NCBI RefSeq assembly: GCF_030253575.1 | Contig: NC_080558.1 | Span: 37,951,611-38,015,610, forward strand | Length of the DNA: 64,000 bases | From: Rhododendron vialii | Lineage: Eukaryota; Streptophyta; Magnoliopsida; Ericales; Ericaceae | Direction: 5' to 3' | Part shown: piece after piece, positions 7,545 to 53,697 of the stretch | Layout: each line of letters begins with the position of its first letter | How positions within the stretch are numbered: position 1 is the first letter of the stretch | Position numbers and translations under genes: made by a program | Notes under the pieces: model-generated | What the model was told of the DNA's origin: nothing | Seen by the model: only the letters and a program-made list of their open reading frames with translations | The model's database searches: none

Positions 7545-7547
7545 TCA

Positions 7548-7841
7548 CAGATTCAATTGTACATGGATAGCATCCAACGATTCCAACCAACCAGTGAAAC
7601 ATTTTGTATCACTGCTTAATCCAAGAAACCATATGATCCGTATTGCATACTTCAAAAAGTATCCTAGATTTGTGTAGCGGGCCGACCCGTGTAGTTTGGG
7701 ACAACCAGGTCCTATCGGACTACAGGCGCACCTCCTAGGCTCCAACAGTTGAGAATAATTCCCACCCATTTTTAAAACATTTGCGTTTCCATGACGATGC
7801 CATCTGCCACTTGAAAGCCTTTGTAAGATGGAAAACACTTC
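7548..7841 (-). pseudogene. Helicase exon 7, distal part
   Basis: Reading minus from 7841 the product is EVFSILQRLSSGRWHRH, then NANVLKMGGNYSQLLE. It corresponds to the conserved C-terminal block after the helicase core (…LSxLxxLSSGW…, …SSQLLE…). It continues in frame from exon 7a when the LTR and one copy of the target duplication are discounted. After SQLLE the sequence stops resembling the family, although the frame stays open to about 7548, so the true end is unclear. Confidence 0.7.
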
Positions 7842-7846
7842 CTTAC

Positions 7847-8715
7847 TGAAATTATGCGGAAGCGTTCAATCTACTCCTAGAGGGGGGGTGAATAGGAGTT
7901 TTAATAAAAATATACCAATTTTTAGATTTAAAAATTAATAAAGATAAACGGGTTGATTATCTCGATTAATCAAAAATAAAATAAAAAAGTACTGCAGTAG
8001 AATAAAAATTGTAACAAGAGACGCACGATTTACGTGGAAAAACTTAGGGTCCTAAATAACCCTAAGCCAAAACCACGGCCTAACACTACTGATTTATTGT
8101 ATTAATCAAAAAGAAGTACAGATTGCGAAATAGTAAATCCTTACCCAAGTCTTTACCTATTCTCGCCAATCTCCGATGTTCCCCGAGCTTCTTCAAGATC
8201 TAATAGATGCACCACGGACTTCACGCCCGATCTCCGGATTCAACCGGCTCCGAATCAATCTCCAAAAGATTCGGCCACAGCAGCAAACGGCACCAAAAAT
8301 CACGAACAGTGAATGAATGAATGATATGATGCAAAGCGTGATCTAAACAACTCAAACCGCGTTCGAAGATGCAAGAGGCAAGAACAAACAAAAATCGGAA
8401 TGCGGGACTGCCACACCAAAAATCCCTCAAGACCGTGCACCCCTTTCTTTCTTTTTAAAACAAAACTTTTGCCTCTGCCGAAAACAAAACAGTCGAGCTA
8501 GAGCAAAGAGACGGAACGTGGGCTGCAACCAATTAATCTCCGTTTCCAGAGAAAGAAGTCAGCGCAACCAAAAAAAAACTCTCGCCCACACCGAAGAAAA
8601 CAAAAACAGTACCGCCCTCCTTTCTTTCTTTCACATATCAGAAAAAAAAAATCTCTCACGCCTCTCGGTCAATTTTATCTTTTGTGCACTCTTTTTCTAT
8701 TAACCCAATGGGTCA

Positions 8716-8766
<51 letters not shown>

Positions 8767-9127
8767 AAAATAAAATCCTTGGCTTACCTAAAACGTAGAC
8801 AATCTTTCCTTTTGATAACATATTTTCCGAAGAGTAAATGACATATATATGGAAACGAGTATTTGGAGAGATTTATAGGAAAGACAAATGTGTAGAAATA
8901 AAATTTCTAATCTTGAAAATGATATGCATGATGTGCTGTGTAAAGCTTTTACCTTTCACGCAATTGGCTCGATTTCGTAGCGGTCAACTTGGCGCAGATA
9001 ATGGGAGGAGCATCGAGCGAGACACTACCCCTAATTATCCTACCCATTACAATCAAGTGGAGTCGATATAACAAAAGACACTAATGGAGGTTTTGGACAA
9101 CCCCGGAAAGTGCCAAAATATCTAACA
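7847..9127 (-). mobile_element. Solo LTR (SIRE/Copia type) inside helicase exon
   Basis: On the minus strand it begins TGTTAGATATTTTGG (9127 downward) and ends GCTTCCGCATAATTTCA at 7847. It is flanked by a perfect 5-bp duplication, CTTAC on the plus strand (7842-7846 and 9128-9132). No primer-binding site or internal region follows. It shares CACCCCCCCTCTAGGA near its end and GGCCGTGGTTTTGGCTTAGGGT with the LTR of the complete SIRE element at 9.4-21.2 kb, where the same landmarks occur. It is therefore a divergent relative in opposite orientation. An expanded (TA)n tract (8720-8763) lies in its promoter-proximal part. Confidence 0.9.
8720..8763. repeat. (TA)n microsatellite
   Basis: About 22 TA dinucleotides within the solo LTR, at a position compatible with an expanded TATA region of that LTR. 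Confidence 0.95.
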
Positions 9128-9190
9128 CTTACGAACACCTATATTCCTGATTTCGTAAATGGATTTCATAAATTCGTCACTGAAGCAAAC
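9128..9190 (-). pseudogene. Helicase exon 7, proximal part
   Basis: The acceptor CTATTTGTAG (9200-9191) is followed by 21 codons reading VCFSDEFMKSIYEIRNIGVR and then Lys. This is the block that follows RWK of exon 6 in the family, in the same phase (0). The final GTAAG is the target duplication of the solo LTR, and the reading frame resumes at 7841. Intron 6 is 12.2 kb now and would be about 430 bp without the SIRE element. Confidence 0.85.
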
Positions 9191-9408
9191 CTACAAATAG
9201 AAAAGGAAAGAAGATGATCCCTTCGTTATCGTTCCTTTTGGAAGAAATGAAGTTAGCACAAAGGTATTGAATAAAGGTATCGGAAAAAAGGTACCCATTG
9301 TCAAGTTTTCCCTAGTAAAATTTTTTCAGTTTCAAAAAAAAGGTGTATCGAAAAAGGTTAAATCACTTGTCGGCGTCACTATTTAGGAGCCGCGTTTTGT
9401 TTATGTTA

Positions 9409-10540
9409 TGTTAATGTAATTGGCGATTTCCGGATGCGACAAACCGTTGGAGTCTGTATTTATTCGATTTCCATTTGGGTTGGGAGGTGATTTTATTTTG
9501 TCTAGATTAGATACTCCGCCCGTTGGTTCAAGAGTTGATCACGAAGGCCGTGCCGTGCATTTTGCTTGGAAAGGTATATGCATCTCATGTGCATTTAGCT
9601 TAATATTTTTCCATGCATCATTAAAGCTATTCGGTGTCTTAATCTTTTATGAAATATCATTTATGCACTAACCTTATATTATTGGCCTTGTTTTATTTGA
9701 AGGAAAATTTTGTCTAAGGCCTTTTTAAGTGCTTGCGCCTTAGTAGCGCCTTAGCAACGCCTTACCAGACTAAGGCCCTTGCATGCGTGTTAAGAGAGCC
9801 TTAGTAGTGCCTTAGCCGAGTAAGGCCCTTGTACGCGTGCTAAGAGCGCCTTTAGAGGGCTCTCCAGGATTTTTCTTGCTTGGCCATATATAAGCTTGAT
9901 TTTCATTTTTCTAGGGCAAGAAGAGAGAGAATAGCCCACTTTAGAGAGAGAAAGCATTATCTTCTTTGCTCTTGTGCCTTCATTTGCATTTGGATGAGTT
10001 GAATCTAGAATTCACTCATCTTTGTTCAATCTAGAGAAATACTTTAATGATCCGTGTATTCTCTCTAGATTGATTCTTTTGCATAAAAACCTTCACTTTA
10101 CAAAATCCATACTTTCATGCCTATGATACTACTTGGCCGGATGATACCGGAGCCGTGGTGAACGGAGATCGAGGTGTTGGACTCGTGGTGGCTATGGGAT
10201 CAAGAAGGAGTTCGGGGAGCTACATCAAAGTGGTGGAGTTAGGATAAGCTTTTGGGGTAAAGTTGTTAATCCTCTCTTAGCACTTTGTAAACCTTTTGAT
10301 CTATAGCAATTTTGGTAGTTAGGCCGTGGTTTTATGCTTAGGGTGCGATTGACCCTAAGTAGTTTCCACGTATATCTCGGTGTTTGCGTTCTTTAGATTA
10401 ATTGCCCTTAACTTATATTATTAATTTGGATAGCATTGGCATGGAGTTTGGATAGTAGCTTGAATTATTGGTTGCTTTAAATTTAAATTGCGTCCTATTC
10501 ACCCCCCTCTAGGACTTTGTAGCGCATTAGATTATTTTCA
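9409..10540 (+). repeat. 5' LTR of SIRE element
   Basis: It starts TGTTAATGTAATTGG and ends TAGATTATTTTCA. It differs from the 3' LTR at 4 positions (near 9445, two within 9464-9466, and one near 9783). A TATA motif TATATAA at 9887-9893 is the likely promoter. Upstream, at about 9710-9865, lies a run of diverged repeats built on the word GCGCCTTAGTAG. Confidence 0.97.
9887..9893 (+). promoter_or_regulatory. LTR TATA box
   Basis: TATATAA preceded by GGCCA. The same motif is in the 3' LTR at 20506-20512. Its position about 480 bp into the LTR fits a U3/R boundary shortly downstream. No transcript evidence is available. Confidence 0.6.
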
Positions 10541-10541
10541 A

Positions 10542-10556
10542 TTGGTATCAGAGCGG
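10542..10556 (+). other. Primer-binding site (initiator Met-tRNA)
   Basis: TTGGTATCAGAGCGG follows the LTR after one base. TGGTATCAGAGC is complementary to the 3' end of plant initiator Met-tRNA, the usual primer of Copia elements. Confidence 0.93.
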
Positions 10557-10605
10557 GTTGCTCTTTGTTGGTGTAATTGCCTGAGTTTGATTCTGTGTTT
10601 GCGCT

Positions 10606-13600
10606 ATGGAACGTGATAATCATATGGAGGGTGCTTCTAATTCTCGACCTCCTTATTTTGACGGTAGTGACTACCCTCTTTGGAAAACGAAAATGAAAAA
10701 TCATTTAATATCCCTTGGCATTAAGGTTTGGAGATCCGTTTTGTATGGCTACGAAGAACCTACTATTGAAGATGCTATTACTAAGGAGATTAGAGTGAAA
10801 AAGGAGGCCGAGTGGGATTCCGGTGACATTACAAATTGTGAGACTAATGCACGCGCTTTAGGAGCCATCTTTGGTGCTATGTCTAGAAATGAAGTCACAC
10901 GTATATCCTCTTGTGTCACGGCTAAAGAGGCTTGGGACATTCTTCGTACTTCTCATGAGGGAATAGAGACGGTTAGGGTGTCTAAGCTTCAAATGTGCAC
11001 AACACGATTTGAACAACTTAAAATGCATGACGAGGAAAACTTTGATGGCTTTATCTCTAGGTTAACCGATATTGTCAACACTTTCCATAGTTTAGGTGAG
11101 CCACTCTCCGACCTTAAAGTGTGCCGCAAAATCCTTAGGTCTCTTCCCGAGAGGTTTAGAGTTAAGGTCACCGCTATAGAAGAACGTACGGATGTTGATA
11201 AGTTGACCTTTGCTGAACTTGTAGGAAAACTTCAAATCTTTGAGATCAACCACCTCTCCGATTTCAAACCCTCAAAGACTACCTCCAAATCTAATAACGG
11301 TATAGCCTTTAAGTCAGCTCGTGAGGAAACCTTTGAAACTTGTGAGGATGAAGATGATATAAGTGACGAAGAGATTGCCATGTTTGCTAAGAAATTTCGA
11401 AAATTCTTTAGGAAAGGAAACAATCTAGGTAAACCTTCTAAGCCATCTTCTAGTTTTAAGAAAAATGTCTTTGGAAACAATGATAAACAATTGTCGGTTG
11501 AAAAATCTAGAAAGCCACAAGGAATTCAATGTCACGAGTGTCATGGGTTCGGACACATTCAATCCGAGTGTGCTAATACTCTTAAGAAGAAAATGAAGAA
11601 AGGTCTTAAAGTCACTTGGGATGATGATAGTGATGAGGATGGTAGTGAGAGTGGTGGTCCAGAGAATGGTGAAGGAAATTCTCGTGTATCTGTGCTTGTT
11701 GCCTCTCTTGAATCCACGGAGGCATCTAAACTTCCTATATTGTCTAATACTTCTAGTGTTAAGACTTCAACTACTAGTGAGGATGAAAAAGAAGGTGATG
11801 AGGATATAGGTTCAATTCATGAAGCATATGATGAGATGTATCGTGAGTGTCTCACCCTTAAGAAGAAGAAGAAAGAGTTAGAAAGTGAGCTCAAGAGGAT
11901 AGAGAAAGAAAGGATGTCACTTAGGATTGAGCTAGATGATCTTAAGAAACACAATGCAAATCTAGTCGAAAAATTTGACACCGCGGAGAAGGAAAGAGTA
12001 GAAGGTTTGAGAGAGGTTGAGAAGGCGAGATCTAGGATTTGTGAGTTAGAGAGAGACCTAAGTGAGGCTAGTGAAGCTATTAGAAGAAATGATTGTGGAG
12101 CCACTAGGATTGCCGAGATGACACGCACGTTTAGAGATAAGAGTGGTCTAGGTTTCATAGATCCACCTTCCCTACAAATGGAGTCTAGTGACCCTAAGAA
12201 GAAAATCACATTTGTAAGTGCTGAAACCATAGTGAATCCATTCTCCTCTAGCAATGCTAAATCTTGTGAGAACGAGACACTTGTGAGTGCTAAGCCCGTA
12301 GCAAATTTACCTTCTTCTAGCATCTCAAAACCTATAGTGAATGAGTTTCTTGAGAAGAGAGTCCTCATTTGTCATCATTGCGGAAATGAGGGTCACATTC
12401 GACCTAAATGCTATCGTTTGAGGAGAGAGCTTCGAAAGAAAGGTCAAACTCAAAGACCTCAAAAGCGATTCGTTCCCCGGGGCGTTGTCCTTGGTCAATC
12501 CACTTTGGAGAGACCTCGTAACACTTCTCCCAAGCCTTTCAAAACTCAAGACAATGACTTTTTTGCTCAATTGAATGATCTTGCAACTCAAACTTCTCAT
12601 ATTGTGAAAGAAATTAACAAATTGAGTGTATTTGCCAAGATTTTTGATGTGAATGCTCTTGCTCGTGATAGAAACTTGAATGGTAATTCGCATACTCATG
12701 CTCATTCTAACAAAACATGGAAAAAGGTTGAAAATATTTGTCATGTTGCACACATCGCATATAGAGCTCATAATGCTTGCATTTGGTATCTTGATAGTGG
12801 TTGTTCTAGGCACATGACCGGGGATAGGGGTATGTTTGCCATGCTTGAAAACTATGATGGTGGTCTTGTGACGTTTGGTGATGGTAAAAAAGGAAAAGTG
12901 GTAGGTAGAGGCACTATTTCAACCCCCGGTCTCCCTACTTTGCATGATGTTCTATTTGTTGATGGTTTGAAAGCTAATCTCTTGAGCATAGGCCAATTTT
13001 GTGATAATGAGCATAATGTGCAATTTTCAAAAGATACGTGTTCCGTTCTTAATTCTAAGGGAGAATGTGTTGTTAAAGGAATTAGATCTTCGGATAATTG
13101 CTATTGTGTTGAACCTCATCCTTCTAACATGTGTCATCGTGTTCTACTTGATGATGTTGAATTGTGGCATCAACGCTTAGGTCATGTTAATTTTCTAGAA
13201 TTGTACAAAATTACCAATCGTGAGGTTGTGAGAGGTGTGCCCAAGCTTGCAAATGGGAAGGGTCTTGTGTGTGGTGGTTGTATGGAAGGAAAACAAATTA
13301 AGTCTCAACATAAGAAAACAAACATAATTGGTACCACTCGGCCTCTTGAGTTGGTACATATAGATCTCATGGGTCCTTCTAGAACTGAGAGCTTGGGAGG
13401 TAAAAAATACATTCTTGTTATGGTCGATGATTACTCTCGCTATTCCTGGGTTGGTTATCTTAGGGAAAAATCCGACGCTTGTGCTTCCTTTAAAATTTTG
13501 TGTAAACGTCTTCAAAATGAAAAAGGGTATTCATTAGTTCGTGTGAGGAGCGATCACGGTAAAGAATTTGAAAATCTTGGGCTTGACACGTATTGTGATG

Positions 13601-15915
13601 AAAATGGTATCAAACATGAGTTTTCAGCTCCTCGTACCCCCCAACAAAATGGGGTTGTTGAGAGAAAAAATCGAACTCTTCAAGAAATGGCACGCGTTAT
13701 GTTGCATGCCAAACGTGTTCCTCGTAATCTTTGGGCCGAAGCTATTAATACCGCATGCTACACTATTAATCGTGTTTATGTGAGGCCGGGAACTTCCCAA
13801 ACCCCTTATGAAATTTGGAATGGGCGAAAAGTTAAATACTTTAGGGTTTTCGGTAGTAAGTGCTACATTTTAAGAGAAGGAGATTCCTTGGGTAAGTTTG
13901 ATTCTAGGAGCGATGAGGGAATTTTTCTTGGGTATTCCATTAATAGTCGTGCTTATAGGGTTTATAACCTTAGAACTTCTACTCTTGTGGAGTCGGCAAA
14001 TGTTATTGTGGATGATACCGCTTTAGGAGATTCAACCCCTAGAAGTGACAATGATTTAGATCCTATTTGGGATATATTTGAGGGGGAGGTTGACCCGGGC
14101 AACATTATAGAAGGAGACTCTCATGTGGAAAGTGATGATGATCCAACGGAAGTTGTAGGAAATAGAGATGATGGAGTAGAAGATGATAGTGAGCCGGAGG
14201 GTAGTGAAACTATAGACGATGATGAACTTGGTCAACATAATCTTGTTCCTTTGTCTACCAAAGAACCTTCTGCTAGAGTCAAACTTCATCACCCTATAAC
14301 CCAAGTCATAGGCGATCCAAGTGATAAGATGAAAACTAGGAGGGAAATTAGGAATGAAGTCACCTTTGTGTGCTACACATCCTCCTTAGAGCCCAAGAAA
14401 GTGGAAGAAGCCTTAGGTGATGAGAGTTGGGTAGAGGCCATGCAAGAAGAACTCCAACAATTTACTAGGAACGATGTGTGGTACTTAGTCCCTAGACCAT
14501 CTCATACAAATGTCATAGGCACCAAGTGGATTTTTAAGAATAAAAAAGATGAGAGTGGTATTGTGGTAAGGAATAAGGCTAGGTTGGTGGCTCAAGGGTA
14601 CACACAAATGGAGGGAATAGACTTTGAAGAAACTTTTGCTCCGGTAGCTAGGTTGGAATCAATTAGGTTGTTATTTGCTATCGCTAGTCATCTTGGTTTT
14701 AAACTTTTTCAAATGGATGTGAAGAGTGCTTTTTTAAATGGTGACCTTAAGGAAGAAGTTTATGTTGAACAACCTAAAGGCTTTGTTGACCCATCGAATC
14801 CTTCTTATGTGTATCGTCTTCGAAAGGCTTTATATGGCCTTAAACAAGCTCCTCGTGCTTGGTATGAGCGTTTAACCGACCATCTTTTGAATACAGGTTT
14901 CGTTCGAGGGGGAGTGGACCGAACTTTGTTTATACGAAAGATTGATAGTGACATTGTCATTGCTCAAATTTACGTCGATGATATAGTGTTCGGATCCACT
15001 AGCATTAAACATGCTCATCATTTTGGTGCACAAATGTCTCACGAGTTTCAAATGAGCCTTATGGGAGAATTGACATATTTCCTTGGTTTTCAAATCAAAC
15101 AATTAAATGATGGAATTTTTATAAGTCAATCCACATATGCTAAAGACTTGGTTAAGAAATTTGGGTTAGAAGATGGTAAATGCACACGAACACCTATGAG
15201 CACAAGTGTAAAGATTGCTAAAGACTTTAAAGGAGTGAATGTGGATCCTACGCTCTATAGAAGCATGATAGGAAGTTTGTTGTATCTCACCGCTAGTCGT
15301 CCGGATATTGCTTTTAGTGTTGGTGTGTGCGCTAGGTATCAATCCGAACCAAAGGAATCACACTTAACCGCCGTCAAACGCATTATTCGTTATGTGAAAG
15401 GGACCTTGTCCTTAGGTTTGTGGTTTCCTAGAGGTACCAATATTGATTTAGCCGCTTTTTCGGATGCCGATTGGGCCGGAAGTGCCGACGATCGCAAAAG
15501 CACCTCGGGTGGGTGTTTCTATTTAGGAAATTGTCTAGTGGCTTGGCATAGTAAAAAGCAAAATTGTGTGTCATTATCCACGGCTGAGGCCGAATACATA
15601 GCGGCCGGTAGTTGTTGCACACAACTCTTGTGGATGAAGCAAATGTTGCAAGATTATGGTTTACCTCAAGGCACCATGACGGTATTTTGTGACAACACTA
15701 GCGCGATCAATATCTCCAAAAATCCGGTTCAACACTCTCGGACTAAGCATATCGATATTCGTCATCATTTCATCCGTGACCTTGTGGAGGATAAGGTCAT
15801 CTCTCTTGAGTTCATCCCTACACTTGATCAAAAGGCCGATCTTTTCACAAAACCTTTAGACTCCGCTAGATTCGAGTTTCTTAGGAAGTCTATTGGCTTG
15901 ATTTCTATCGATTGA
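10606..15915 (+). CDS. Gag-Pol polyprotein of SIRE-type Copia element
   Basis: A single uninterrupted frame of 1769 residues. The Gag domain begins near [17 protein letters not shown]. The first zinc knuckle, [14 protein letters not shown], starts at residue 309. A coiled coil rich in Glu, Lys and Arg lies at about 410-500, and the second knuckle, [14 protein letters not shown], starts at 589. The aspartic protease DSG starts at 730, followed by the GAG-pre-integrase motif (LWHQRLGH). The integrase catalytic triad is D920, D983 and E1019, with the usual 35-residue D-E spacing. The reverse transcriptase YVDD is at 1456-1459, and RNase H begins near D1620 ([18 protein letters not shown]). Pol order PR-INT-RT-RH is Copia. 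All catalytic residues I checked are present, so the copy may be competent. The ATG at 10606 lies 65 bases after the LTR end. Confidence 0.97.
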
Positions 15916-16567
15916 GGTTGGATAGTTTGCATGTCACTCGTGTGTGTTTCATCTCTTGTTTGTGTCTAGAGTGCATGTGTGTCTTTCATTTTCACTTTCG
16001 TGTCTATTTTTTTTGTTATTTTTTTTTAGTTTATTTTATTTGGGATAGCATTTTTTTTTTTTTTGGTTCTTGAGTGTGCTTGCTTGTCCACATGATTGCT
16101 TGCTCGTGTTAACTATACTCCTTGTATCATGTTTTAAGGTTAAGTTTGGCTTTTCTTGCAAATTGAGCTTTGAGCTTTGATGACACTTCATGCGCCCATA
16201 AAACTATGCATAATTGCCTATATTGTGAAGAGTTTCATTATGTCATTTGAATCTCATGCTCTCTACTATTTGTACACTCTCTCTTGGGGCTTGGTCCTTT
16301 TGGTGTCTAAGGGTTCTCAATTTGATTCTTGGTTGAATTCTACTTGTCTTGATCTTAGATTGACCAAATGTTTGAGGTTTACCTTTAGATGCTTTCCCCC
16401 ATTGATTCTACTCGAATGACCGCCTAGGGATTAGTGTGAAAGCTTCCCTTGGTGCATAAAAGAGTGAGATCCTTGTTTATTGTCTTTCATTTTTTTTTCT
16501 TTAAAAAAAAAAATCAAAAAAAAAAATCAAAAAAAAAAAAAAGAGGAGAAAACAACAAATTATATCC

Positions 16568-16663
16568 AGTTCTAGTCTTGGGGTTGTTGCTCTAGTGCAC
16601 CTCCTTTTCTTTATGAGTTCTAGTCTTGGAGTTGTTGCTCTAGTGCACCTCCTTTTCTTTATG
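16568..16663 (+). repeat. 48-bp tandem duplication
   Basis: Two copies (16568-16615 and 16616-16663) of a unit starting AGTTCTAGTCTTGG differ at one base. They lie in the non-coding spacer of the retrotransposon. Confidence 0.9.
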
Positions 16664-17639
16664 TGATCTCGCACCTTGGGCGAATGGCTACCTAATCATT
16701 GCACCATCCTAGGTGTGTGAGTCACTTGGGTCCATGAGAATGCGATATGGGGTTTGTGCGTGAAGTCTTTAGGTCCAAACGACTTATGGTTTGACTTCTA
16801 TCATCAAACTTGTGTGAATTCTTCTTGGGAATTGAATTGGGTATCCCTTGGCATTTTAAAGGGTCTCGCTCCACTCTCACGGAGTTCACTTGCTCACTTT
16901 GATAGCATAGAGCATGAAATTCTATTGAAAAAAAAACATGATTCTCTTTAAAATATATTCATGTTATGTTTAAGCTTTGTGTTATCATTTTGATGTCATT
17001 ACTGCTTCTCTCTCCATTTCAATGAAATTCCACGTTATACTTGAGCATGATACTTTGGAAATTTCTATTTTCTGTGTGCTTGATTTTTGGATGCTTGCAT
17101 GATCATATTTTATTTGGGCATTTTAGTAAGGGGGAGTCTTGTTGTGAGGGGGAGTAATTAGTCGTTGTGTCCCCTTATTTTATTTTCTTTTAGTCTTTAT
17201 GCCTTAGTTTTATTTTGGTGTAGGCATTCATTTTATTTTCTCCTGCTGTGTTTGCAATTCTGAGAGTAAAGGGCCTCCTTAGGGCCTTAGGAGGGCAGGT
17301 GCCTTCTCTAGCAGTTTTTAGCTTCGTTTCAATTTTCAGAAGATTCAGAGAGTGGGGCATTAAGAGGGCATTAATAGGGCAGTTGCGCTTGTCAGCAGGA
17401 GTTGGAACTCTCAAACTTCCGAGAGTAAGGGCCTTTGTGGGGCCTTAGTAGAGCACCTGCTCACTCTAACAGGTTTGTTTTGGAGGAGTTTCAGAAAGTT
17501 GGGGCGTGTACAGGGTTCTTACAGCGCTTTGTTTCTATGTCGCGCTGGTACGGGCTATAACAGGGCGTTAGTGGCGCACGGACCTCATCTGCTTATCTCA
17601 GCCGTTCGATTCGCGCCTCTTGTTCTGTTCCTCCTTCTC

Positions 17640-17834
17640 GCAGCTGCAGCGGATCAGCCCCATTAGCGCCCTTCCTCGCGTGTTTGTAGAGCGTTAGTGG
17701 GGCGGTTGCTTGCCCATTTTTGATCTGACCGTGCATCTCTTGACAACTGTCCCCGTTGTCCCTTGTGCAGCTGTAGCGGATAACATCTCCTTAGTGCCCT
17801 TTCTCGCGTGTTTACAGCGCTTCTGTAGCGCTCG
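17640..17834 (+). repeat. Imperfect GC-rich repeats upstream of third ORF
   Basis: Two blocks about 127 bp apart (17640-17703 and 17767-17834) share GCAGCTGYAGCGGAT, then TTAGYGCCCTTYCTCGCGTG and a TTTNYAGMGC word. Similar TTAGTGGNGC and TTAGTAGNGC words continue back to about 17265. They resemble the GCGCCTTAGTAG repeats in the U3 part of the LTR. Confidence 0.7.
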
Positions 17835-18061
17835 TTCATTGCCTGGATATATATTCTCCTAGCCAAATTTTTTTTTATTCATTCGAACCTTATCCAATTC
17901 TCTTTTTTTTTTGAGATGGCTTTTCCTACCTGAGCACAGCAGCTCCCGTACTTCTTCTGGGTTCCTCATCTAGGGCCTCCCTTCGACTTTGAGTGATTTA
18001 TTCACTCTCCGGTACGTAATTTCTTCCCATTCTCGTAGAAAATCTCAGCTTATTTACGGTC

Positions 18062-19393
18062 ATGGCTGGTAGTTCCTCGTCTCGTGCTGCTCCTAACGGC
18101 CCTAAACCATGGAGACGCCCATCTGAGTCCCGAGTCGGTTACAAGTTCTTTGTTAATGATGCAGCTCGTGCTTCGTATACGGAAACCTATTCTCAAAAAG
18201 CTGCAAATCTGTGTGAACGAAATGTTAATCTCTCGGATCTTGACTCCATGGGTTTTGATGCTCAGTTTAAGGCTCGTGGTTGGTCTGGTTTGTGTTCTGG
18301 TCATGTTTATGCTAATCCTGAAATGGTGCGTGAATTCTTTAGTAATATTGGTGATGTTAACTCTGAGAAGGGGTATTTCTTTACCACGGTGCGCAACGTT
18401 AAGCTGCGTTTCTCTATTGAGTCGATTTGTGCGTTGCTCAAAATGCCTCGTGTTTTCGATGCTCAATGGCTTTTTGATACCTCTATTACTCCTCCTCGCT
18501 CCGAAGTCATTCGTGAGCTCACCGATGGCTTGATAACACACATAGATGACATTCCTTCCGGTATCATGTCTCCCCATTATCACATGCTTAACAAAATTGT
18601 GTGCTCCCTCATAGAACCAAATGACCATAGTCACGGTGTGAATTTCCCTCGGGCTTGTCTTCTTTATGCTATCGGTCGGGGTTACTCTATTGACTTGGCT
18701 TCTAAGATTTGGTGGCAAATCTATGTGTATGCAACTCGTGCTCCGGGCACCGCTGGTCTTCCCTTCCAATCTTTGCTCACTCGGTTCATGCTTGACAAAG
18801 ATGTCCCCGAGCTTGACAATGAAATCTCCTTTACTCCTAAGGGTGCTATTTCTTCTAAAACCACACGTCTCTCAAAAGCTCAAGTAACCTTTTTGGCCAA
18901 TGCCAAACCTCCAAAGTTCATTCCCACACCCGAGTATCCTCCACTTGAAGCTGTTTTCGCTCCTCTCCACCCTCCTCCGGGGTATAATTCACCTTGGAAT
19001 GTCAATGTTCATGCTCCTGCATGTGACACTCCTCCTTGTCTTGCTCCGACGGCTGTGGAAGCTCCTGCCCCACCAATGGTGGCCTTGGCTCCTCCTCCTC
19101 CTCCACCCGAGTGGATGGAGTCTCTCCAAGGTCACTTTGATAAGGTGCATCTGAAGTTGGATGAGTTTGCGACCCATTTTGAGGCTTTTGACACACAGCT
19201 TTTGAAGATTGATGACTATAATGCTCAGTTTTCGGGGAGTTTTTCGAGGTTGCGCAATGACATGACTTACTTGGCTACTCAAATCAATGGGATGGCAGCT
19301 CAAATCAAGAGGTTGGAAACTCGTTTGGAACTTGATTACTCATCTCCGGTTGATGACATGGAGGCCGATGATGAGGACGGGTCTGATTCTTGA
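18062..19393 (+). CDS. Third ORF of SIRE element (putative plant transposon-protein domain, coiled coil)
   Basis: 443 residues from ATG 18062. Residues about 25-230 (YKFFVNDAARASY, RGWSGLCSGHVYANPEMVREF, RNVKLRFSIESICALLKMP) resemble the domain annotated as putative plant transposon protein (Transposase_32) in many plant genomes. A Pro-rich linker follows at about 295-355, then a heptad-like coiled coil at about 360-430, and an acidic tail. I see no signal peptide or membrane segment, so the label envelope-like used for SIRE third ORFs is positional only. The frame is intact, consistent with recent insertion. Its biochemical role is unknown. Codon use and position do not suggest a host gene. 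Confidence 0.8.
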   Translation: MAGSSSSRAAPNGPKPWRRPSESRVGYKFFVNDAARASYTETYSQKAANLCERNVNLSDLDSMGFDAQFKARGWSGLCSGHVYANPEMVREFFSNIGDVNSEKGYFFTTVRNVKLRFSIESICALLKMPRVFDAQWLFDTSITPPRSEVIRELTDGLITHIDDIPSGIMSPHYHMLNKIVCSLIEPNDHSHGVNFPRACLLYAIGRGYSIDLASKIWWQIYVYATRAPGTAGLPFQSLLTRFMLDKDVPELDNEISFTPKGAISSKTTRLSKAQVTFLANAKPPKFIPTPEYPPLEAVFAPLHPPPGYNSPWNVNVHAPACDTPPCLAPTAVEAPAPPMVALAPPPPPPEWMESLQGHFDKVHLKLDEFATHFEAFDTQLLKIDDYNAQFSGSFSRLRNDMTYLATQINGMAAQIKRLETRLELDYSSPVDDMEADDEDGSDS

Positions 19394-20015
19394 AGTGCTA
19401 CCTTGGCTTTCCTCCAAATTTTGGGATACTTCTTTGCTTCCCGGGACAAAAAGGGGGAGAAAGATCGGTTGCTTGTGTGGAGAGCCTTTGTGAGGTAGTT
19501 TGGTAGTTCGGCGAGGTTCATATTAGTAGCTATTTTATCTATCTTTTTGTTTAGCCCTTGCATGGGCTAGTTCGGCGAGGTTTATATTAGCAACTAGTTT
19601 ACATATCTTTTTATTTAGCCCTTGCGTGGGCTTGGTACTTAAGTTGGTACGTTTGCTCTGTTGCATGATAGTGCCCATGGTAGGGCATATGGTTTATGTT
19701 AATATGCGCGGCCGTGGCTAAGGTCGTTTTATCTCTACCTTAAATGCCTATATTGCTCTTTCTCTTCCATTAGCATTGCTTTAAATATGTTAGCTCCTCT
19801 TGGTAATTTGATTTCCGTTGCGCTAAATCCTTACTGCTGTCATATATCTATGCATGCTTGTTGCTTTGGTTGAGTTATCTTTTGCAGGATCATTTTGATT
19901 TATATGGAAGCTTTTGGTTTCTAGGTTGTTAGAGTTTTTAGAAGGTTCTCTAGCATTCTAGAATTTGTTTCCTTGTAATGAGTTTTTGTTGGAATGGTTT
20001 TGTCCCGGAAATGCC

Positions 20016-20026
20016 AAAGGGGGAGA
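20016..20026 (+). other. Polypurine tract
   Basis: AAAGGGGGAGA lies directly upstream of the 3' LTR start TTG-TGTTAATG, the plus-strand primer position. The same word family occurs earlier at about 17128-17153. Confidence 0.9.
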
Positions 20027-20027
20027 T

Positions 20028-21159
20028 TGTTAATGTAATTGGCGATTTCCGGATGCGACAAACCATTGGAGTCTGTATTTATTCTTTTTCCATTTGGGTT
20101 GGGAGGTGATTTTATTTTGTCTAGATTAGATACTCCGCCCGTTGGTTCAAGAGTTGATCACGAAGGCCGTGCCGTGCATTTTGCTTGGAAAGGTATATGC
20201 ATCTCATGTGCATTTAGCTTAATATTTTTCCATGCATCATTAAAGCTATTCGGTGTCTTAATCTTTTATGAAATATCATTTATGCACTAACCTTATATTA
20301 TTGGCCTTGTTTTATTTGAAGGAAAATTTTGTCTAAGGCCTTTTTAAGTGCTTGCGCCTTAGTAGCGCCTTAGCAACGCCTTACCAGACTAAGGCCCTTG
20401 CACGCGTGTTAAGAGAGCCTTAGTAGTGCCTTAGCCGAGTAAGGCCCTTGTACGCGTGCTAAGAGCGCCTTTAGAGGGCTCTCCAGGATTTTTCTTGCTT
20501 GGCCATATATAAGCTTGATTTTCATTTTTCTAGGGCAAGAAGAGAGAGAATAGCCCACTTTAGAGAGAGAAAGCATTATCTTCTTTGCTCTTGTGCCTTC
20601 ATTTGCATTTGGATGAGTTGAATCTAGAATTCACTCATCTTTGTTCAATCTAGAGAAATACTTTAATGATCCGTGTATTCTCTCTAGATTGATTCTTTTG
20701 CATAAAAACCTTCACTTTACAAAATCCATACTTTCATGCCTATGATACTACTTGGCCGGATGATACCGGAGCCGTGGTGAACGGAGATCGAGGTGTTGGA
20801 CTCGTGGTGGCTATGGGATCAAGAAGGAGTTCGGGGAGCTACATCAAAGTGGTGGAGTTAGGATAAGCTTTTGGGGTAAAGTTGTTAATCCTCTCTTAGC
20901 ACTTTGTAAACCTTTTGATCTATAGCAATTTTGGTAGTTAGGCCGTGGTTTTATGCTTAGGGTGCGATTGACCCTAAGTAGTTTCCACGTATATCTCGGT
21001 GTTTGCGTTCTTTAGATTAATTGCCCTTAACTTATATTATTAATTTGGATAGCATTGGCATGGAGTTTGGATAGTAGCTTGAATTATTGGTTGCTTTAAA
21101 TTTAAATTGCGTCCTATTCACCCCCCTCTAGGACTTTGTAGCGCATTAGATTATTTTCA
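20028..21159 (+). repeat. 3' LTR of SIRE element
   Basis: 1132 bp, the same length as the 5' LTR, with 4 substitutions between them by my reading. It ends TTATTTTCA and is followed by the target duplication TGTTA (21160-21164). An 83-codon ORF present in both LTRs (from 20039 and 9420) has no recognisable domain. Confidence 0.97.
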
Positions 21160-21374: not shown

Positions 21375-21591
21375 CTTCCACCTCATATTACGGAACAGCG
21401 GTGAATCAGTTATGAGTAATGTATCAAGTTGGTTAAGCTCAACTAAAGCACCCGCAACAGCTTGAGCCAAGTTCTTGTCATCATTAGCATCATAAAAGCA
21501 ATCCCGAGCCTTGGCATCGACAACAAGTTCTTTCCAAACAGAGCCGCTGTTAATCAAAGTAGCACCATCGCCCAGTATCCAGAGGCAATGC
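21375..21591 (-). pseudogene. Helicase exon 6
   Basis: The acceptor GGTGTAG (21598-21592) opens the exon in phase 2 and restores the Arg of ALTRAR. The product reads HCLWILGDGATLINSGSVW onward and ends MRWK before the donor GTATGC (21374 downward). This is the usual end of the helicase core in the family (C-LWILG-GATL--SGS-W). Confidence 0.9.
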
Positions 21592-21986: not shown

Positions 21987-22248
21987 CTTGCGCGAGTGAG
22001 AGCCACATTTGTTCTTTGACGATTGGAAAGAAAGCCAACAGATCCACGCCCATTACACCGCACGGGAGAGATGATTATGAGATCCTCCTCACCACCTTGA
22101 AACCCATCAACAGATCGAACGTCTACTGAGAAGTCAGGGTAAGAATCCGTATTGTATGTTTGCCCAAGTTTTTCTTGGAGTGCAAATACTTGAGCTTTAT
22201 AAGGCGATATGCAACCAACCCTGAGCTTCTGTTTTGATGCCACAGATT
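21987..22248 (-). pseudogene. Helicase exon 5 (motifs V and VI)
   Basis: The acceptor GTCGCTGCAG precedes 22248 and the donor GTACTG follows 21987. The product contains [11 protein letters not shown], then motif V ([16 protein letters not shown]), then [14 protein letters not shown] (motif VI). These are the residues that couple ATP hydrolysis to strand movement in SF1 helicases. All are present. Confidence 0.92.
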
Positions 22249-22360
22249 CTGCAGCGACGCAAATGCAATCTAATTATTTACCACAATTTAGGCAGCAACA
22301 AACACTAGCAATTTAGAATTCTAAATCTTACCACGTTCTTCATTGAAAAGAGAAAAGTAC

Positions 22361-22673
22361 CTTTGAAGAGGCTTGCAACAATCTCAGAAACAACAGCCAC
22401 CTCCACCAAGTTTTTCGTGCTATGCCTATCAAGCTCCTCCTTCCCCTGGCTTACATTAATGAAAGAATAGGATCCATACATACCTCCTCGAAGAAGACGC
22501 CTCTCGTGGGCTTGTTCTTTGACATTCGGACCGTCCAAAATCTTACTTTCGTAGAACTCCCTATTTGGAAATGAACTTATCGATGGATGCATTCTGTACT
22601 GGACGTTAAGAAGATGCTTCTTATGTCCTAATATCACCAGCCTCTCGAATAAGCTTCTTCCAAATTCAGCCGA
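22361..22673 (-). pseudogene. Helicase exon 4 (motif IV)
   Basis: The acceptor ATATGCCAG is followed by SAEFGRSLFERLVILGHKK, LLNVQYRMHPSISSFPNREFY and GPNVKEQAHER. The donor is AAAG-GTACTT, phase 1. QYRMHP is the signature of the UPF1/SEN1 branch. Its 313-bp length fits the phases on both sides. Confidence 0.92.
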
Positions 22674-23552
22674 CTGGCATATCTATTAGTGATAGATTCG
22701 CAGAGTCAACAAAAAAAGACATATGTTTGAGTTGATCAAGTCAAACAAGTGATTGATTTTGTTTGATTCCTCATCAAGCAATCAAATTACTACTAGTACA
22801 CACTACACAGTCATTTCAAACTCGTAAGACCATAGCTTTCCAACTATTGAAAGCCTTATGTAAACTATCAGATTTCCATTTAAGCTAATTCTCATTTAAA
22901 ATCCACATCTATCCAAATGGAGCATTCGTGAATAGAAAAGAAACAAAAATAACAGACCTTGCTTTCAACCGTTGCAGGCAGTTGCCGTTCATCCCCAACG
23001 AGTATAGCATGACGGATACCAGAGAGCTGCAAAGGAACAGTGGATTCACATTCTATGAGCTGAGCAGCTTCGTCAATAACCAGCAGTTCCAGTGGTCTCA
23101 TTCCTTTTGTATGCAATGTAGCCGAGCTTGAAGCAGTGCAAAATATCAAGCACGCGTTTTGCAAGCAAAAACTCCAAATTTTATAGTGTGAAGTTAAAAT
23201 TGGCAAATGTATTGTTTCAGTAAGGAATCTAAGTATTTGAACAAGCTCTGTCTTCGAAGAACTCAAGCTTCCGAAGTGTTCAATCGTGTTCCCAACCTCG
23301 TCAACTCCATTGATCAGGACTTCTCTCAGACTCTTAATTGCAACAGCACGGGTATACATAGTTCCAATGGATTTTAGCAAATCGAGAGCCTTAATCATCT
23401 TCTTTACCACTTCCAATGAAATGAAAGCAGTCGGCAGATGCATGTACAAATCTGTAGTACGAAAGATGAGCTGATTTCCAATGAGTTTAAATCTCTTCAT
23501 GAAAAACTCCTCAAATGTCATCACCTTATCCGTCTTTTCTCCATTTTCTTTG

Positions 23553-23914
23553 TGTTGGTCGCGGGCCAGCATCCTGCCCACGCGGGTCGAACCGTGGCGC
23601 TTGGGGCCTGCTACGCTATGGTATAAGGAGATAGAGTTGCGCCTTTACCACTACCTGCGGGTTTTGGTAAGATGGTAAGCGGTTGATCCTACAAGTGGTA
23701 TCAGAGCCAAGGTCGCGGGTTCGACTCCCCTGGATGGCATGCTGCTTGCGGGCAGGTGCTGGGGGGGGGGGATTGTTGGTCGCGGGCCAGCATCCTGCCC
23801 ACGCGGGTCGAACCGTGGCGCTTGGGGCCTGCTACGCTATGGTATAAGGAGATAGAGTTGCGCCTTTACCACTACCTGCGGGTTTTGGTAAGATGGTAAG
23901 CGCTTGATCCTACA
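23553..23914. mobile_element. TRIM retrotransposon with 141-bp LTRs
   Basis: Two 141-bp terminal direct repeats (23553-23693 and 23774-23914) begin TGTTGGTCGCGGGCC and end TTGATCCTACA. They differ at one base (G/C near 23681). Between them lie 80 bp with the PBS TGGTATCAGAGCC (23696-23708) and a G-rich polypurine run before the second LTR. The TSD is CTTTG (23548-23552 and 23915-23919). There is no coding capacity, which defines a terminal-repeat retrotransposon in miniature. Just after the PBS, GCGGGTTCGACTCCCC (23715-23730) resembles a tRNA T-arm. The element introduces a stop (23910-23912) into the helicase frame. A related LTR is at 52348-52489. Confidence 0.96.
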
Positions 23915-23996
23915 CTTTGTTACTTCGAGTTGAGTCGTCCTTTTCCTCTCTTTTATCACACTCCAATATCCTTTTTCTCTTTGAACGCTCCTCCTC

Positions 23997-24155
23997 CTCC
24001 TCCTTTTCTGATTTCTTGTTTTCCTTCCAGGTCTGCCCAACAATTTTCCTCCTCCAAATTCTCTTTCGCTCCTCCTCCTTCTTCTTCTTTTCTGATTTCT
24101 TGTTTTCCTTCCAGGTCTGAACAATTTTCCTCCACCAAATTCTCTTTCCATCCAC
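23997..24155 (-). repeat. In-frame tandem duplication in helicase linker
   Basis: Two units of about 79 bp encode KIVQTWKENKKSEK- and KIVGQTWKENKKSEK-type segments followed by poly-Glu/Lys. The duplication keeps the frame and lengthens the charged linker between Walker A and Walker B. Confidence 0.8.
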
Positions 24156-25545: not shown

Positions 25546-26085
25546 AGTGGAATCGGGTTGCAGCACTCTACTAATGACGTTCATGTTCCTCTCCTCCAGC
25601 TCTGACCTCAATGCCATCCACATTCTCAAATTAGTTACCATGCTTGTAAGGTAAACAACAAAAAGACTTCGCCGCTTCCTATACTTTAGTCGATATCCAT
25701 ATTCACCCGGCACGATGAACTTTGAAGCCCGTATATCCATTTTTTCAGAACCACTTTCGCCCGCTGTATGAACAAAACCAATAAGATAAGGACATCCAGG
25801 CCTGTGTAGATCCTCCATACATTTTGGTCTGACATCTGTCAAGGCAATAAGATCTCCAAACTTGGGCTCATAACTTGCAGCGTCCCTCCTTCTATTGAAT
25901 GAAATGTTGTAGTACAAGTACCTGGGAGGTCTGGACATGTCAACGGACCATATCTCACGTGTAGGAGCGCGATGCACTGTCTGTATGCTTGAGAACAAAC
26001 CTTTGTGTGTTTCTTCAATGAGGGGGTTGATAAATGAGTCCATATAATCATTGGTTGATGAAAAGATCTCTGGAATTGGCTTAAC
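25546..26085 (-). pseudogene. Helicase exon 2
   Basis: 180 codons between the acceptor TTTTACCAG and the donor GTAAGA. The product starts VKPIPEIFSSTNDYMDSF and includes PLIEETHKGLFSSIQ, FGDLIALTDVRPK, a beta-rich domain and RSLFVVYLTSMVTNLRMW. It ends QPDST. This is the N-terminal accessory domain that precedes the ATPase in the MAGATAMA3-like branch. It is intact. Confidence 0.9.
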
Positions 26086-26760: not shown

Positions 26761-27490
26761 TCTTTCAAAAATATCATAAACTACTAAAATTAGTGAAAGT
26801 GAGAATTAAAAATGTAAGCACAGAATAAGAATTGAGAGTGGGAGCGAAGGGCCCTACTAATCAGCTTCATTAGACATCATTATCCAACCAATTTTGGAGT
26901 TCAAGACAAAAACATGTAGGTCTCATCTAATGTGGTGAAACAACCATTCTACAACCACACACAAAGGGGTGAGCCCACCTCTTTGTAAGTGTGTGTACAC
27001 ACCCCTTTGGGAATGTATGTAAGTGTTTGTATGTTTGTGTGTGGCTATAAAATTATTGGTGGTGAAAATGGGCCTAGAGCACGAGGGGCACTGAATAATC
27101 CCGTCTTCTTTTAAAAATTAGGGGGTGTTTCCATTAACAAAAAATACTAAAAACTTAACATATTTTATCATTTTGTTTCTACTAATAAAAAAAATTTAGC
27201 ATTTTACCATCTCGTTTCCTCTAACAAAAAAGTTGTCAACATAAACTTTTTTTTTTTGCTACCATCAACAACTTATTCACTATCAGAAACAACTTAACAT
27301 TTCTCAATAATTTATTCACTATTGCCTATCAAAAAAATAATTTATTTACTATCGAAAACACCTAACAACTTCTCAATCCCAAATAAAAATTTACAAATTT
27401 TTCACTACGGAAAACACCCAACCCGTTACTCCATTCTCTTGGACAATAGTATGGGGTCCACCAAAAAAATGCTTAAATAATCTCTCCCTT

Positions 27491-28233
27491 AGGCCATTCA
27501 CAGTGGTATAATCAAAAAAGAATAATCAAAAGTTGACACATCAGCTTTTGATTATTCACTTAAGAGGTTTCTAAGCTTAATAATGTTAAGCTTCACTATG
27601 GTCACTTCTAGTCCATAACCAAAATATGGGGTCCACTACAATTTCACTCTCTATCTCCCTCCATTTTCTGTCATTCACTTCCCTCCATTTACGTTTTTTA
27701 TGGGTTAAAATATATCGATTCCCTCTCTTAATTTTGGAGAAAAAAATCGGTGACTTCCTTCCCTCCTATTATGAATTTTTTTTTTTTGGTGGTGTGTGTG
27801 TGTGTGTGTGGGTGGGTGGGTGGGAGGGGAATTGAAACAGGAAAGAAGAGTGAAACACCTTAATTTGGCGACGATGAGTTGAATTGTAGATGATCGAGAG
27901 ATATGAGTTTCACTTCTGAAGGAAAAGAAAGAGAAATAGTTTGTGGGTGAAGTGAAGAAGACATAGAGTAGGCAAAGAAACTTGGCTATATAAAATTTTT
28001 ATTCTTCAATTTTATTTTTTTTACCAAAAAAAAAAGAGTAGGCGAAGAAGAGAAAAAGAAAATACCAGTTGAAACACGTGTGTATACAAATTTTGGAATT
28101 AGTTAACTTATGTGGTGTAGGGTTCACAAATTTTGATTATTGAAAAAGGTTGCTAGTTTTGGTTATCCAAAGCCTAAAATTTAATTATTTCTAAGGATAT
28201 TGCTAAGTTTGATTATACCATTGTGAGCGATTT
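27491..28233. mobile_element. MITE with 25-bp terminal inverted repeats
   Basis: The left end GGCCATTCACAGTGGTATAA is mirrored by TTATACCATTGTGAGCGATT at the right. TAATCAAA and TTTGATTA words extend the match inward. The interior holds a GT-rich run (about 27790-27822) and no transposase. It sits in helicase intron 1. Confidence 0.75.
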
Positions 28234-28369
28234 TTTGTAACAACATTGTTAACTTTAAAAGTACCCGTTTTGATGTAAGAAAGAATCTCTCTCTCTCTCT
28301 CATTTGGAAGTCATTTTCACATCCGCTTTCAAAATCATGTTGATTGAGGGTGAGTACTTCTAAACTTAA

Positions 28370-28700
28370 CTTATTTTTTTATTTTGTGTGTTTTGTTCGG
28401 CTTTTTTGAATTTTTGTGAAAATTTTTATATTTTTATTTGGATTAATCATTCGTCCTGACAAGGAATCTAAAAAATACAAAATTATGACCAAAAGCAAAA
28501 AAGAAGCTCACTAAAGACAAAAAAAAAAAAAAAAGTATCAAACAATTGTCTTTTGGAGCTTAAGTGCCGTCTTATTTGAATTTTTTCAACATCAGTCCAT
28601 ATTTTTAAACATTTCCGATTTGTCTTGACGAGACGAACGATTAACTCCTAAAATTATGTGCAAAAGCCAAACAAAAAAAAAACGCAGATACATATAACAA
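28370..28700. repeat. AT-rich foldback repeat family, copy 2
   Basis: It shares GATTAATCATTCGTCCTGAC near its start and, inverted, TCTTGACGAGACGAACGATTAA near its end with the copies at 4.6, 31.2 and 34.7 kb. The ends are approximate. Confidence 0.55.
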
Positions 28701-29049
28701 CCAATGATTAATATTGTAGGCTTCAAAAAGTCGAGCTCTTTCTTAGTTGACTATTCTATTGACAATTCATAATTTTGTTTTACGAGAGATATGGTGGAAA
28801 ATCAATCAGATACAGTTATCATTACAGAAAGTATTCCTCTTGATCATGAGTTTTTTTACTCACACTGGACTCCTATTTCATTTATACCAAGATAAAAATC
28901 AGTACAAATATCGTGATGATTGACATTCAATGAATAGAAATTTAGCACGATTAATGATAACACCTCTAAAAATGGATGATTTCATCGTGGATTATTTTCG
29001 GGCCTACAAATAGAAAACTAGGGTGGATTATAGAGGAGTCAACTTACTT

Positions 29050-29250
29050 TTAAGTATAACTTAACCCTAAAGGATGGGCAAAGTAGGTGCTTGACCATAA
29101 GGTCTCATGTTCGAGTTTCTCGGAAATTAATCATTCCTAACCTTGGGGCTACTGGTGGTTATGTCCAATAATTATCTTCAGGGTCCTGAGATTAGTCGAA
29201 GTACACGCAAGTTGGTCCGAACATCCGATTATAAAAAATAAAAATAAAAA
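29050..29250 (+). mobile_element. tRNA-derived SINE, Au-like
   Basis: GATGGGCAAAGTAGGTG followed by a B-box-like TGTTCGAGTTT (29109-29119). The 3' part reads GATTAGTCGAAGTACACGCA, then AACATCCGATTATAAAAAAT and an A-rich tail, an arrangement I recall for Au-type plant SINEs. A diverged 3' fragment of the same kind lies at about 57290-57330. Confidence 0.6.
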
Positions 29251-29503
29251 AAACTTTTATGTATAACCCATGTACATACAGAAAGTGCAAACATTCTATT
29301 TCCCTCTGGACATTAAAAAAGAAAAGAAAAGGTGCATACATGCATTTTGTCCTTTTGAATTGCATTGGGACGTATACGGTAGACCTTTACTAGTATTTCT
29401 TTTGATCATCCCCGTAGACATTAATAATCAACCACTTTTGTGGTCAGGAAAATGCTAAAAAAGCTGTCAATTATTATTAAGGTTACAAAAAGAAGAAGCA
29501 AAC

Positions 29504-30358
29504 ACTCCTCCGTTTCATTTTCGTCGTTCATTATTCTGTTTGTTTGTTTTTTTATGTCTTGTGTCTATATCTTTTAGTGTAAATTTTGGAAAATATGTAA
29601 TATGAATCTTGTTTGATAGATCTTGATTAGTTCTATAATACAAAATTTTCAAAATTATGAAAAATATTATAGATTGAAAGATATAAATAATTAAAAAATG
29701 GGGCAAAGTCTACTTTCACCCCCTATGGTTATCGTCATGTGCGGATACTCTCCTCATGGTTCAAAACTGGCCACATAATTTACATGTGGTTTTGAAAATG
29801 TGCTGATAGACCTCCTGACGTCATGTTTTCCATCCGTATCAACGGAGATGTATCTCACACGCCTTTAAAATGTAATTTGAGTCGTTCATAATATATTAAA
29901 TAAAGAATAAAGTATTTCTGTAAAAAATCTTCTCGATCAGGTATCAATAACCCAGTGATCTAATTTTTAGTAAATTCAAATTTGAAATTATAATTTCATA
30001 ATAAAATCAATTCGACTATGAGCTTTTTATTTTTTGATTGACTCGAATTTTGGCATAGATGTAGTACTCGTCAAAATTTACAATATCAACGGTTTGGATT
30101 TAAAAAAGAAAAAGAATCAATGGACATGATGAGGATATATATCGGTCTTTTAATATTATGTCCGTTAATATAAATAGGAAATATGACGGCATGTGGTCTA
30201 TCCGCATATTTTCAAAACCACAAGTATATTATGTGGTCAGTTTTGAACCATGAAGAAAGTATCCGCACATAATGATAACTACAGGAGGGTCAAAGTGGAC
30301 TTTTCCTAAAAAAATTACACACAATTCAAAAATGCACAATGAAAATGGAACGGAAGAG
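29504..30358. mobile_element. Degenerate Stowaway-like MITE hosting a second MITE
   Basis: The outer arms ACTCCTCCGTTTCATTTTCG (29504) and GAAAATGGAACGGAAGAGT (ending near 30358) are inverted copies of the Stowaway end motif. Only the right flank keeps a TA. The middle is occupied by the element at 29700-30306. Confidence 0.65.
29700..30306. mobile_element. Nested MITE with long inverted ends (Mutator-like)
   Basis: Arms of more than 100 bp. Left: GGGCAAAGTCTACTTTCACC, then ATGTGCGGATACTCTCCTCA. Right, inverted: AAAGTCCACTTTGACCCTCC, then ATGTGCGGATACTTTCTTCA. The flanks are TAAAAAAT and TAAAAAAAT, a near 9-bp duplication. No ORF is present. The long ends and the 8-9-bp flanks suggest a Mutator-derived MITE. 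Confidence 0.75.
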
Positions 30359-30467
30359 TAATAATTTACTGCTACTCCTACTACGTACTACTATAGAACA
30401 AGCTAGCTAGCTAGGTAAAAAGAAGAAATTAAGGAAGGAGTAGTCTCATGCATGTTGAAATCCAAAC

Positions 30468-30605
30468 CTTGGCCTTGTAAAGATCTTTGTTGAGCACATC
30501 GGCAAGAGACCAAGAGAAGACCAAGTCAATTAAGCCTTCACCCTTCGATTCTCTCTTCTTTACATTTTTTTGCTTTTTGTACCCCTTCTTTACATACCTT
30601 CCCAT
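30468..30605 (-). pseudogene. Helicase exon 1 with start codon
   Basis: 46 codons from ATG 30605 to the donor AAG-GTTTGG. After a Lys-rich start it reads GLIDLVFSWSLADVLNKDLY, the conserved N-terminal signature of this helicase branch. The last codons join in phase 0 to KPIPEIF of exon 2, 4.4 kb away. No earlier ATG lies in the open stretch upstream in this frame. Confidence 0.88.
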
Positions 30606-36827: not shown

Positions 36828-36863
<36 letters not shown>

Positions 36864-53678: not shown

Positions 53679-53697
53679 GTTTTTGTAAATAAATTTA

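Follow-up and report, generated by a model that had tools for sequence, protein, structure and literature searches.

The helicase gene and its three insertions

The sequence analysed (the window) was a 64,000-nt stretch of Rhododendron vialii DNA, whose minus strand carried one copy of a DUF6469-bearing helicase gene of the UPF1/SEN1 type with a footprint from ~30605 to 6796 (a spread of 23.7 kb). Three long terminal repeat (LTR) elements, namely a terminal-repeat retrotransposon in miniature (TRIM), a full-length Sirevirus and a solo LTR, lay inside the gene, and the end of its exon 7 was missing. In the list below, ordered along the gene, P0001 and P0002 are the R. simsii family members Rhsim02G0186700 (annotated as a P-loop NTPase/helicase) and RhsimUnG0008700, respectively, ORF denotes an open reading frame, and each target site duplication (TSD) is written on the gene strand, followed by its plus-strand reading.

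30468–30605, minus strand: exon 1, with the start codon at 30605, 89% identity to P0001 residues 1–47 and a GT donor
25546–26085, minus strand: exon 2, with a DUF6469 match (PF20073, E value 2.2e-11 on the ORF containing exon 2) and a tblastn match to P0001
22958–24818, minus strand: exon 3, split by the TRIM, with Walker A GPPGTGKT, a lysine/glutamate (K/E)-rich linker, DEAA and GDERQLPA; frame kept across the duplicated site
23915–23919, minus strand: upstream copy of the TRIM TSD, CAAAG (CTTTG on the plus strand); second copy at 23548–23552
23553–23914, plus strand: TRIM, 362 bp, in exon 3, antisense to the gene, with no long ORF
22361–22682, minus strand: exon 4, 96% identity to P0001 residues 728–834
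21987–22248, minus strand: exon 5, 94% identity to P0001 residues 835–924
21375–21591, minus strand: exon 6, tblastn match to P0001
21160–21164, minus strand: upstream copy of the Sirevirus TSD, TAACA (TGTTA on the plus strand); second copy at 9404–9408
9409–21159, plus strand: full-length Sirevirus (Ty1/copia, SIRE lineage), 11,751 bp, in intron 6, antisense to the gene
9128–9190, minus strand: exon 7, part ahead of the solo LTR, 90–95% identity to P0001/P0002
9128–9132, minus strand: upstream copy of the solo-LTR TSD, GTAAG (CTTAC on the plus strand); second copy at 7842–7846
7847–9127, minus strand: solo LTR, 1,281 bp, in exon 7, sense to the gene, with TG...CA ends
7740–7841, minus strand: exon 7, part past the solo LTR, 86–89% identity to P0001/P0002; homology stops at SQLLE
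7548–7739, minus strand: foreign or rearranged segment, replacing the last 67 codons of exon 7 and open by chance to a stop
6796–6919, minus strand: orphaned exon 8, reading NLVVPVTWPDDSADSDYL... to a stop; E 6e-5 to the tails of P0008/P0010/P0011

Membership of the UPF1/SEN1-type plant helicases with DUF6469 was indicated by the N-terminal DUF6469 domain and by the superfamily 1 (SF1) helicase core; both halves of exon 3 matched PF13086 (AAA_11), and the motifs found included those that we take to be Walker A, DEAA and the later SF1 motifs. Chains of known structure matched by protein sequence comprised SEN1 (5mzn, E 8e-54), UPF1 and SMUBP2. MAGATAMA 3 is a label used by some sources for members of this family, the family itself being that of the DUF6469-bearing plant helicases. 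The C-terminal features of the family, a segment past SQLLE and a terminal exon with NLVVPVTWP, were not in place, the segment being absent and the terminal exon orphaned; this is read as a lesion and not as the sign of a different family.

A first-pass annotation had described a single UPF1/SEN1-type helicase gene, the exons of which join in phase once the insertions are discounted. The former point was borne out by the Pfam domains, the family matches and the SEN1, UPF1 and SMUBP2 structure-chain matches, and the latter by frame checks and by the phase in the relatives. With its start at 22682, exon 4 includes the residues ICQ, as in the relatives. When the TSD bases were counted once, 1,045 codons were readable without any other stop or frameshift. 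It is hardly credible that the exon blocks are parts of different genes brought together by chance: the wide spread (23.7 kb) and the interruption of homology at 7740 would fit such an origin, but the blocks have GT-AG sites, keep a consistent phase and are colinear with one protein, P0001 (residues 1–1048), and this colinearity rules out exons from separate genes.

The K/E-rich linker of exon 3 contained an imperfect 66-nt repeat (two copies 84 nt apart, 23975–24124), and the length of this linker differs among relatives. Intron 1 carried a 131-nt inverted repeat (29719–30288) resembling a miniature inverted-repeat transposable element; no convincing TSD was found around it, and a duplication at this place was rejected for that reason.

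All three insertions proved to be as first claimed, i.e. independent, two of them in coding exons, and each flanked by an exact 5-bp TSD. The chance of a 5-bp match at fixed ends is 0.0013, and that of all three is ~2e-9. TRIMs are characterised by short direct LTRs, a tRNA primer binding site (PBS), a polypurine tract (PPT), a lack of coding capacity and a 5-bp TSD. The exon 3 element possessed each of these, including two LTRs of 141 bp that were identical at 140/141 positions, a Met-tRNA-type PBS (TATCAGAGC at 23699) and a G-rich PPT (a G-run ahead of the 3′ LTR), and it supplied a stop codon directly past the gene/TRIM junction. An older-looking relative of this TRIM (~81% identity; one LTR and the start of the internal region) was located at 52340–52515. 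The exon 7 insertion had the TG...CA ends and TSD of a solo LTR and no internal region. It probably came from a family related to, but different from, the Sirevirus, because the two LTRs had short modules in common, in alignments of 62 columns at 82% and 76 columns at 75%, together with one of 23 columns at 96% that includes the polyC motif.

The assignment of the intron 6 element to SIRE held on its PBS, PPT, TATA-like and polyC marks and its copia-type domains. Its gag-pol ORF (10606–15915), with copia-type Pfam domains, was open, and its LTRs were 1,132 bp long. The PBS junction ATTGGTATCAGAGC was located at 10541, the 5′ LTR end and PBS reading CA-ATTGG-TATCAGAGC; the PPT AGGGGGAG at 20018, 10 bp ahead of the 3′ LTR; and TATATAA at 9887, about the middle of the LTR (9409–10540). 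The polyC-rich motif CACCCCCCTCTAGG, also present in the solo LTR, was observed near the LTR 3′ end, where a polyC-rich integrase signal has been described for Sireviruses (PMC2829016). In the PBS junction, the position of the PPT octamer, the polyC-rich motif near the LTR end and the TATA-like motif, the element resembled the Sireviruses as described in the available part of that article. The octamer occurred also at 17129, 17147 and 19452, as well as at 14081 and 14907 inside gag-pol, a region in which the same part calls it rare. A second ORF (18062–19393, coding strand) lay between gag-pol and the 3′ LTR, the place of the env ORF in envelope-containing Sireviruses (PMC2829016). The element differed from the Sireviruses of this source in that the product of this extra ORF matched PF20167 ('putative plant transposon protein') and not a named envelope; it may differ further in its CGG-CCG palindromes, which were scarce, being seen at only two places in the LTR.

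The missing end of exon 7

Family homology stopped at 7740, and not at the stop near 7548, leaving 67 codons of exon 7 (counted on P0001) missing. In 5/5 relatives compared (P0001, P0002, P0008, P0010 and P0011), SQLLE is followed by a conserved segment, which in P0001 is 67 residues long; P0008, P0010 and P0011 then run into NLVVPVTWP, and the P0001 annotation ends elsewhere. When the tails of these five relatives were compared with 6000–7745 by tblastn, exon 8 alone was recovered (E 6e-5), the best E being otherwise 0.12. The latter match (8/18 residues of P0008 and P0011, at ~7525–7472) was colinear and on the right strand; it was taken as chance because the closest relatives, P0001 and P0002, were without it. 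No clear second copy of the segment past 7740 was found in the window by blastn (best other match, E 0.012). Supported homology of exon 8 reached ~6862, and P0002 matched its DNA as well, in a different frame (E 5e-15).

Because the conserved segment is absent and exon 8 lies at 6919–6796, the stop near 7548 is not the natural end of the gene and appears to close a frame that happens to be open in replaced sequence. The gene end placed there by the first-pass annotation was therefore given up, since homology stops at 7740 and exon 8 is recognisable downstream. Its statement that the frame is otherwise open held for the 1,045 clean codons and failed at the C-terminal end, where exon 7 lacks its conserved end and exon 8 has been severed from the rest. 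Annotators should be aware that the stop near 7548 resembles a natural end and yet falls in replaced sequence.

Relatives and the loss of the gene

Both exon sites, that of the TRIM and that of the solo LTR, were insert-free in R. simsii P0001 and P0002, as seen at the protein level only. Rhsim02G0186700 shared with the window gene 90.4% identity over 1,033 aligned residues, the exon order and a chromosome-2 locus tag, and differed in having neither TRIM nor solo LTR and in possessing a complete exon 7 end. The annotation of P0002 extends past the helicase into PF14372/PF05699 domains, which we take to be of the hAT-transposase type; the annotation has probably fused the gene with an element next to it.

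Among the best 120 of 1,533 matches, family members numbered 4 in R. simsii, 5 in R. molle, 4 in R. griersonianum and 4 in R. vialii, two of the last being isoforms of one gene. No close R. vialii protein was present among these 120, the best of the 4 sharing 73% identity in a comparison for which proteins under 576 residues were no candidates, and this suggests that no long protein has been deposited for the window locus.

Recent function of the copy, as proposed at first pass, gained support from a relative-rate test, a tree and LTR divergence. Tajima-type unique changes, with P0002 as the outgroup, numbered 37 in the window gene and 33 in P0001; with P0003, P0008 and P0006 as outgroups, the respective counts were 29/28, 30/27 and 31/32. 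In a 25-row tree, the end branches were 0.063 for the window gene and 0.060 for P0001, which together come near the total for another family pair from R. simsii and R. vialii (0.074 + 0.045), and the trio of the window gene, P0001 and P0002 had support of 100/100. Because the protein branch is no longer than that of the intact P0001 and the Sirevirus LTRs differ at 4/1,132 sites, the copy appears to have been under constraint until recently. At 6.5e-9 per site per year, the Sirevirus LTRs would be 0.27 My (million years) old. The rate adopted in PMC12837525, 1.3e-8 per site per year, would make them ~0.14 My old. The TRIM LTRs differed at 1/141 sites (95% confidence interval 0.02–3.9%), too few for dating. 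No other disabling change was present, which bounds the unconstrained time to ~0.5–1.9 My (95%; neutral, with assumed mutation and indel rates).

Thus, the locus, a dispersed member of the multicopy DUF6469 helicases of the UPF1/SEN1 type, very probably coded for protein until a short time ago and has since become a pseudogene; its coding sequence is disabled, in comparison with intact relatives, by the stop at the TRIM junction, the solo LTR in exon 7 and the lost tail. In the proposed course of events, the copy would have been dispensable since paralogues remain, and a first lesion would have freed later ones from selection. Three unrelated LTR elements would have accumulated, the TRIM in exon 3, the Sirevirus in intron 6 and the exon 7 element, the last of which would have left a solo LTR behind by LTR-LTR recombination; a separate deletion or rearrangement would have taken away the end of exon 7. 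No full-length protein would be made. The product predicted for a transcript read into the TRIM has 528 residues, keeping Walker A and lacking DEAA and the second RecA domain.

Several observations weigh against this interpretation. The pair of the window gene and P0001 had support of only 82/71, and P0001 may be an orthologue or a paralogue. The solo LTR is undatable, and the lesions may have arisen in any order. Changes at columns invariant elsewhere amounted to 13/253 in the window gene, 9/255 in P0001 and 14/246 in P0002, with 1–2 in three other rows, a count biased by the presence in the set of close relatives of these three rows; the changes in the trio fit an older relaxation of the whole clade. 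Finally, the best frame-keeping splice pair over the TRIM scored 1.5, above two of the six real introns of the gene (0.2 and -0.2), on approximate splice matrices.

The last of these points bears on the idea that the gene still works, with the inserts being either tolerated or removed by splicing, and with a shorter helicase as the product. A total of 84 frame-keeping, stop-free GT-AG pairs spanned the TRIM and 9 spanned the solo LTR (best -4.0), and the solo LTR together with its TSD forms GTAAGT and TTTCAG at its ends. However, the best frame-keeping pair was reached in 261/300 shuffles for the TRIM and in 157/300 for the solo LTR (block-shuffled sequence, without a stop filter), and the C-terminal segment of 5/5 relatives compared is absent here. 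The GTAAGT/TTTCAG pair moves the frame by one; a frame-restoring intron born of the TSD was rejected, for this pair misses exact removal of the solo LTR by one base. A working gene is therefore regarded as very improbable.

A fixed pseudogene is also not the only form that the loss may take, since the disabled copy may be a null allele segregating with intact alleles in R. vialii. We consider this rather unlikely, and it would extend the pseudogene interpretation without contradicting it. The k-mer heterozygosity of R. vialii is 0.89%, and the count of single-nucleotide polymorphisms over syntenic length gives 0.69%, according to the available part of PMC10338486; the Sirevirus LTR divergence (0.35%) is 0.40 (interval 0.11–1.01) of the former and 0.51 of the latter. 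Under neutrality, a second haplotype would be without the Sirevirus with a probability of ~0.60–0.67, an estimate that needs no mutation rate and assumes that the DNA is of R. vialii, that LTR and genome rates are equal and that evolution is neutral. The Sirevirus seems to postdate the typical divergence of the two R. vialii haplotypes. Against this, the estimate covers the intronic Sirevirus only and its interval reaches 1, the age of the TRIM is poorly bounded (1/141) and the solo LTR is undated. If the allele does segregate, intact helicase alleles may persist in R. vialii, a species with very small populations, and the four lesions could be ordered by genotyping rather than by clocks.

Clustering of the elements, neighbouring genes and comparable cases

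The cluster of elements had been ascribed at first pass either to a favoured target or to relaxed selection. A favoured integration target, with the cluster reflecting target choice by the elements and no loss of constraint, is an improbable explanation. In its favour, three LTR-type elements lie in ~10.3 kb of gene, and TRIMs are reportedly enriched in or near genes, an average of 2.7% being annotated as exons (PMC4717578, in the part available). The probability of at least two LTR elements at one given locus is only 0.025–0.033, as calculated for 10,335 bp (footprint 30605–6862 after subtraction of the inserts) at densities published for R. simsii (14,334 elements) and R. ovatum (12,765), and not for R. 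vialii, in PMC12837525, the available part of which does not state whether TRIMs are included in the counts. However, the three elements belong to different families, occur in both orientations and have unrelated TSDs; a few percent per locus would be common across thousands of unconstrained loci; and a repeat-pair scan, the sole element screen applied there, detected no repeat pair in the adjoining CHY-RING gene (36339–39892). A redundant copy tolerating insertions suffices, so that relaxed selection accounts for the data and the favoured target is not needed.

The CHY-RING gene was intact-looking, and its matches are named E3 ligase RZFP34; no R. vialii row was present among its best 120 of 841 matches, the rows being 90% clusters. 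A thionin-like peptide gene, named from a distant match, had exons at 50747–50457 and 47426–47346, and its product was identical at 118/118 residues to that of R. vialii LOC131315578. This peptide match points to R. vialii as the source of the DNA, with only the CHY-RING result speaking against it. These two genes matched consecutive R. molle chromosome-2 tags (Rhmol02G0234600 and Rhmol02G0234700). R. molle thus retains both neighbours, yet each of its 5 family copies among the matches listed carries a chromosome-8 tag. The helicase gene was flanked by two inverted copies of a repeat (1–169 and 33103–33267, 89–95% alike, 33 kb apart). The region 53437–54864, where 242-nt inverted arms lie 944 nt apart and further, shorter inverted repeats are nested, resembles an element of the DNA-transposon type. 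No RNA family reached the gathering threshold in the window.

No published account of this helicase locus was found by a literature search, which is not proof that none exists. Gene breakage by jumping elements is an ordinary process, and the value of the locus lies mainly in its freshness, the breakage looking so recent that unbroken copies may still exist. Gene death is usually observed late, when the first lesion is indistinguishable from later ones; with a near-clean frame, perfect target marks and annotated insert-free relatives, the order of the lesions and the onset of relaxed selection could become measurable.

A close parallel is the d2 allele of ABCB1 in pearl millet, in which, as described in the available part of PMC6686935, one LTR element lies in exon 1; a construct carrying a solo LTR in exon 1 failed to rescue. 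The two cases share an LTR retrotransposon in a coding exon and a second LTR element, which in the millet allele lies upstream of the gene. They differ in that d2, in the same part of that source, has two insertions and a known phenotype, whereas the R. vialii copy has three insertions and a lost tail, with no phenotype known. A TRIM inside a plant coding sequence is likewise present in a floral-gene allele; that allele is phenotypic, whereas the TRIM described here is accompanied by other lesions, and the copy that it interrupts is probably redundant.

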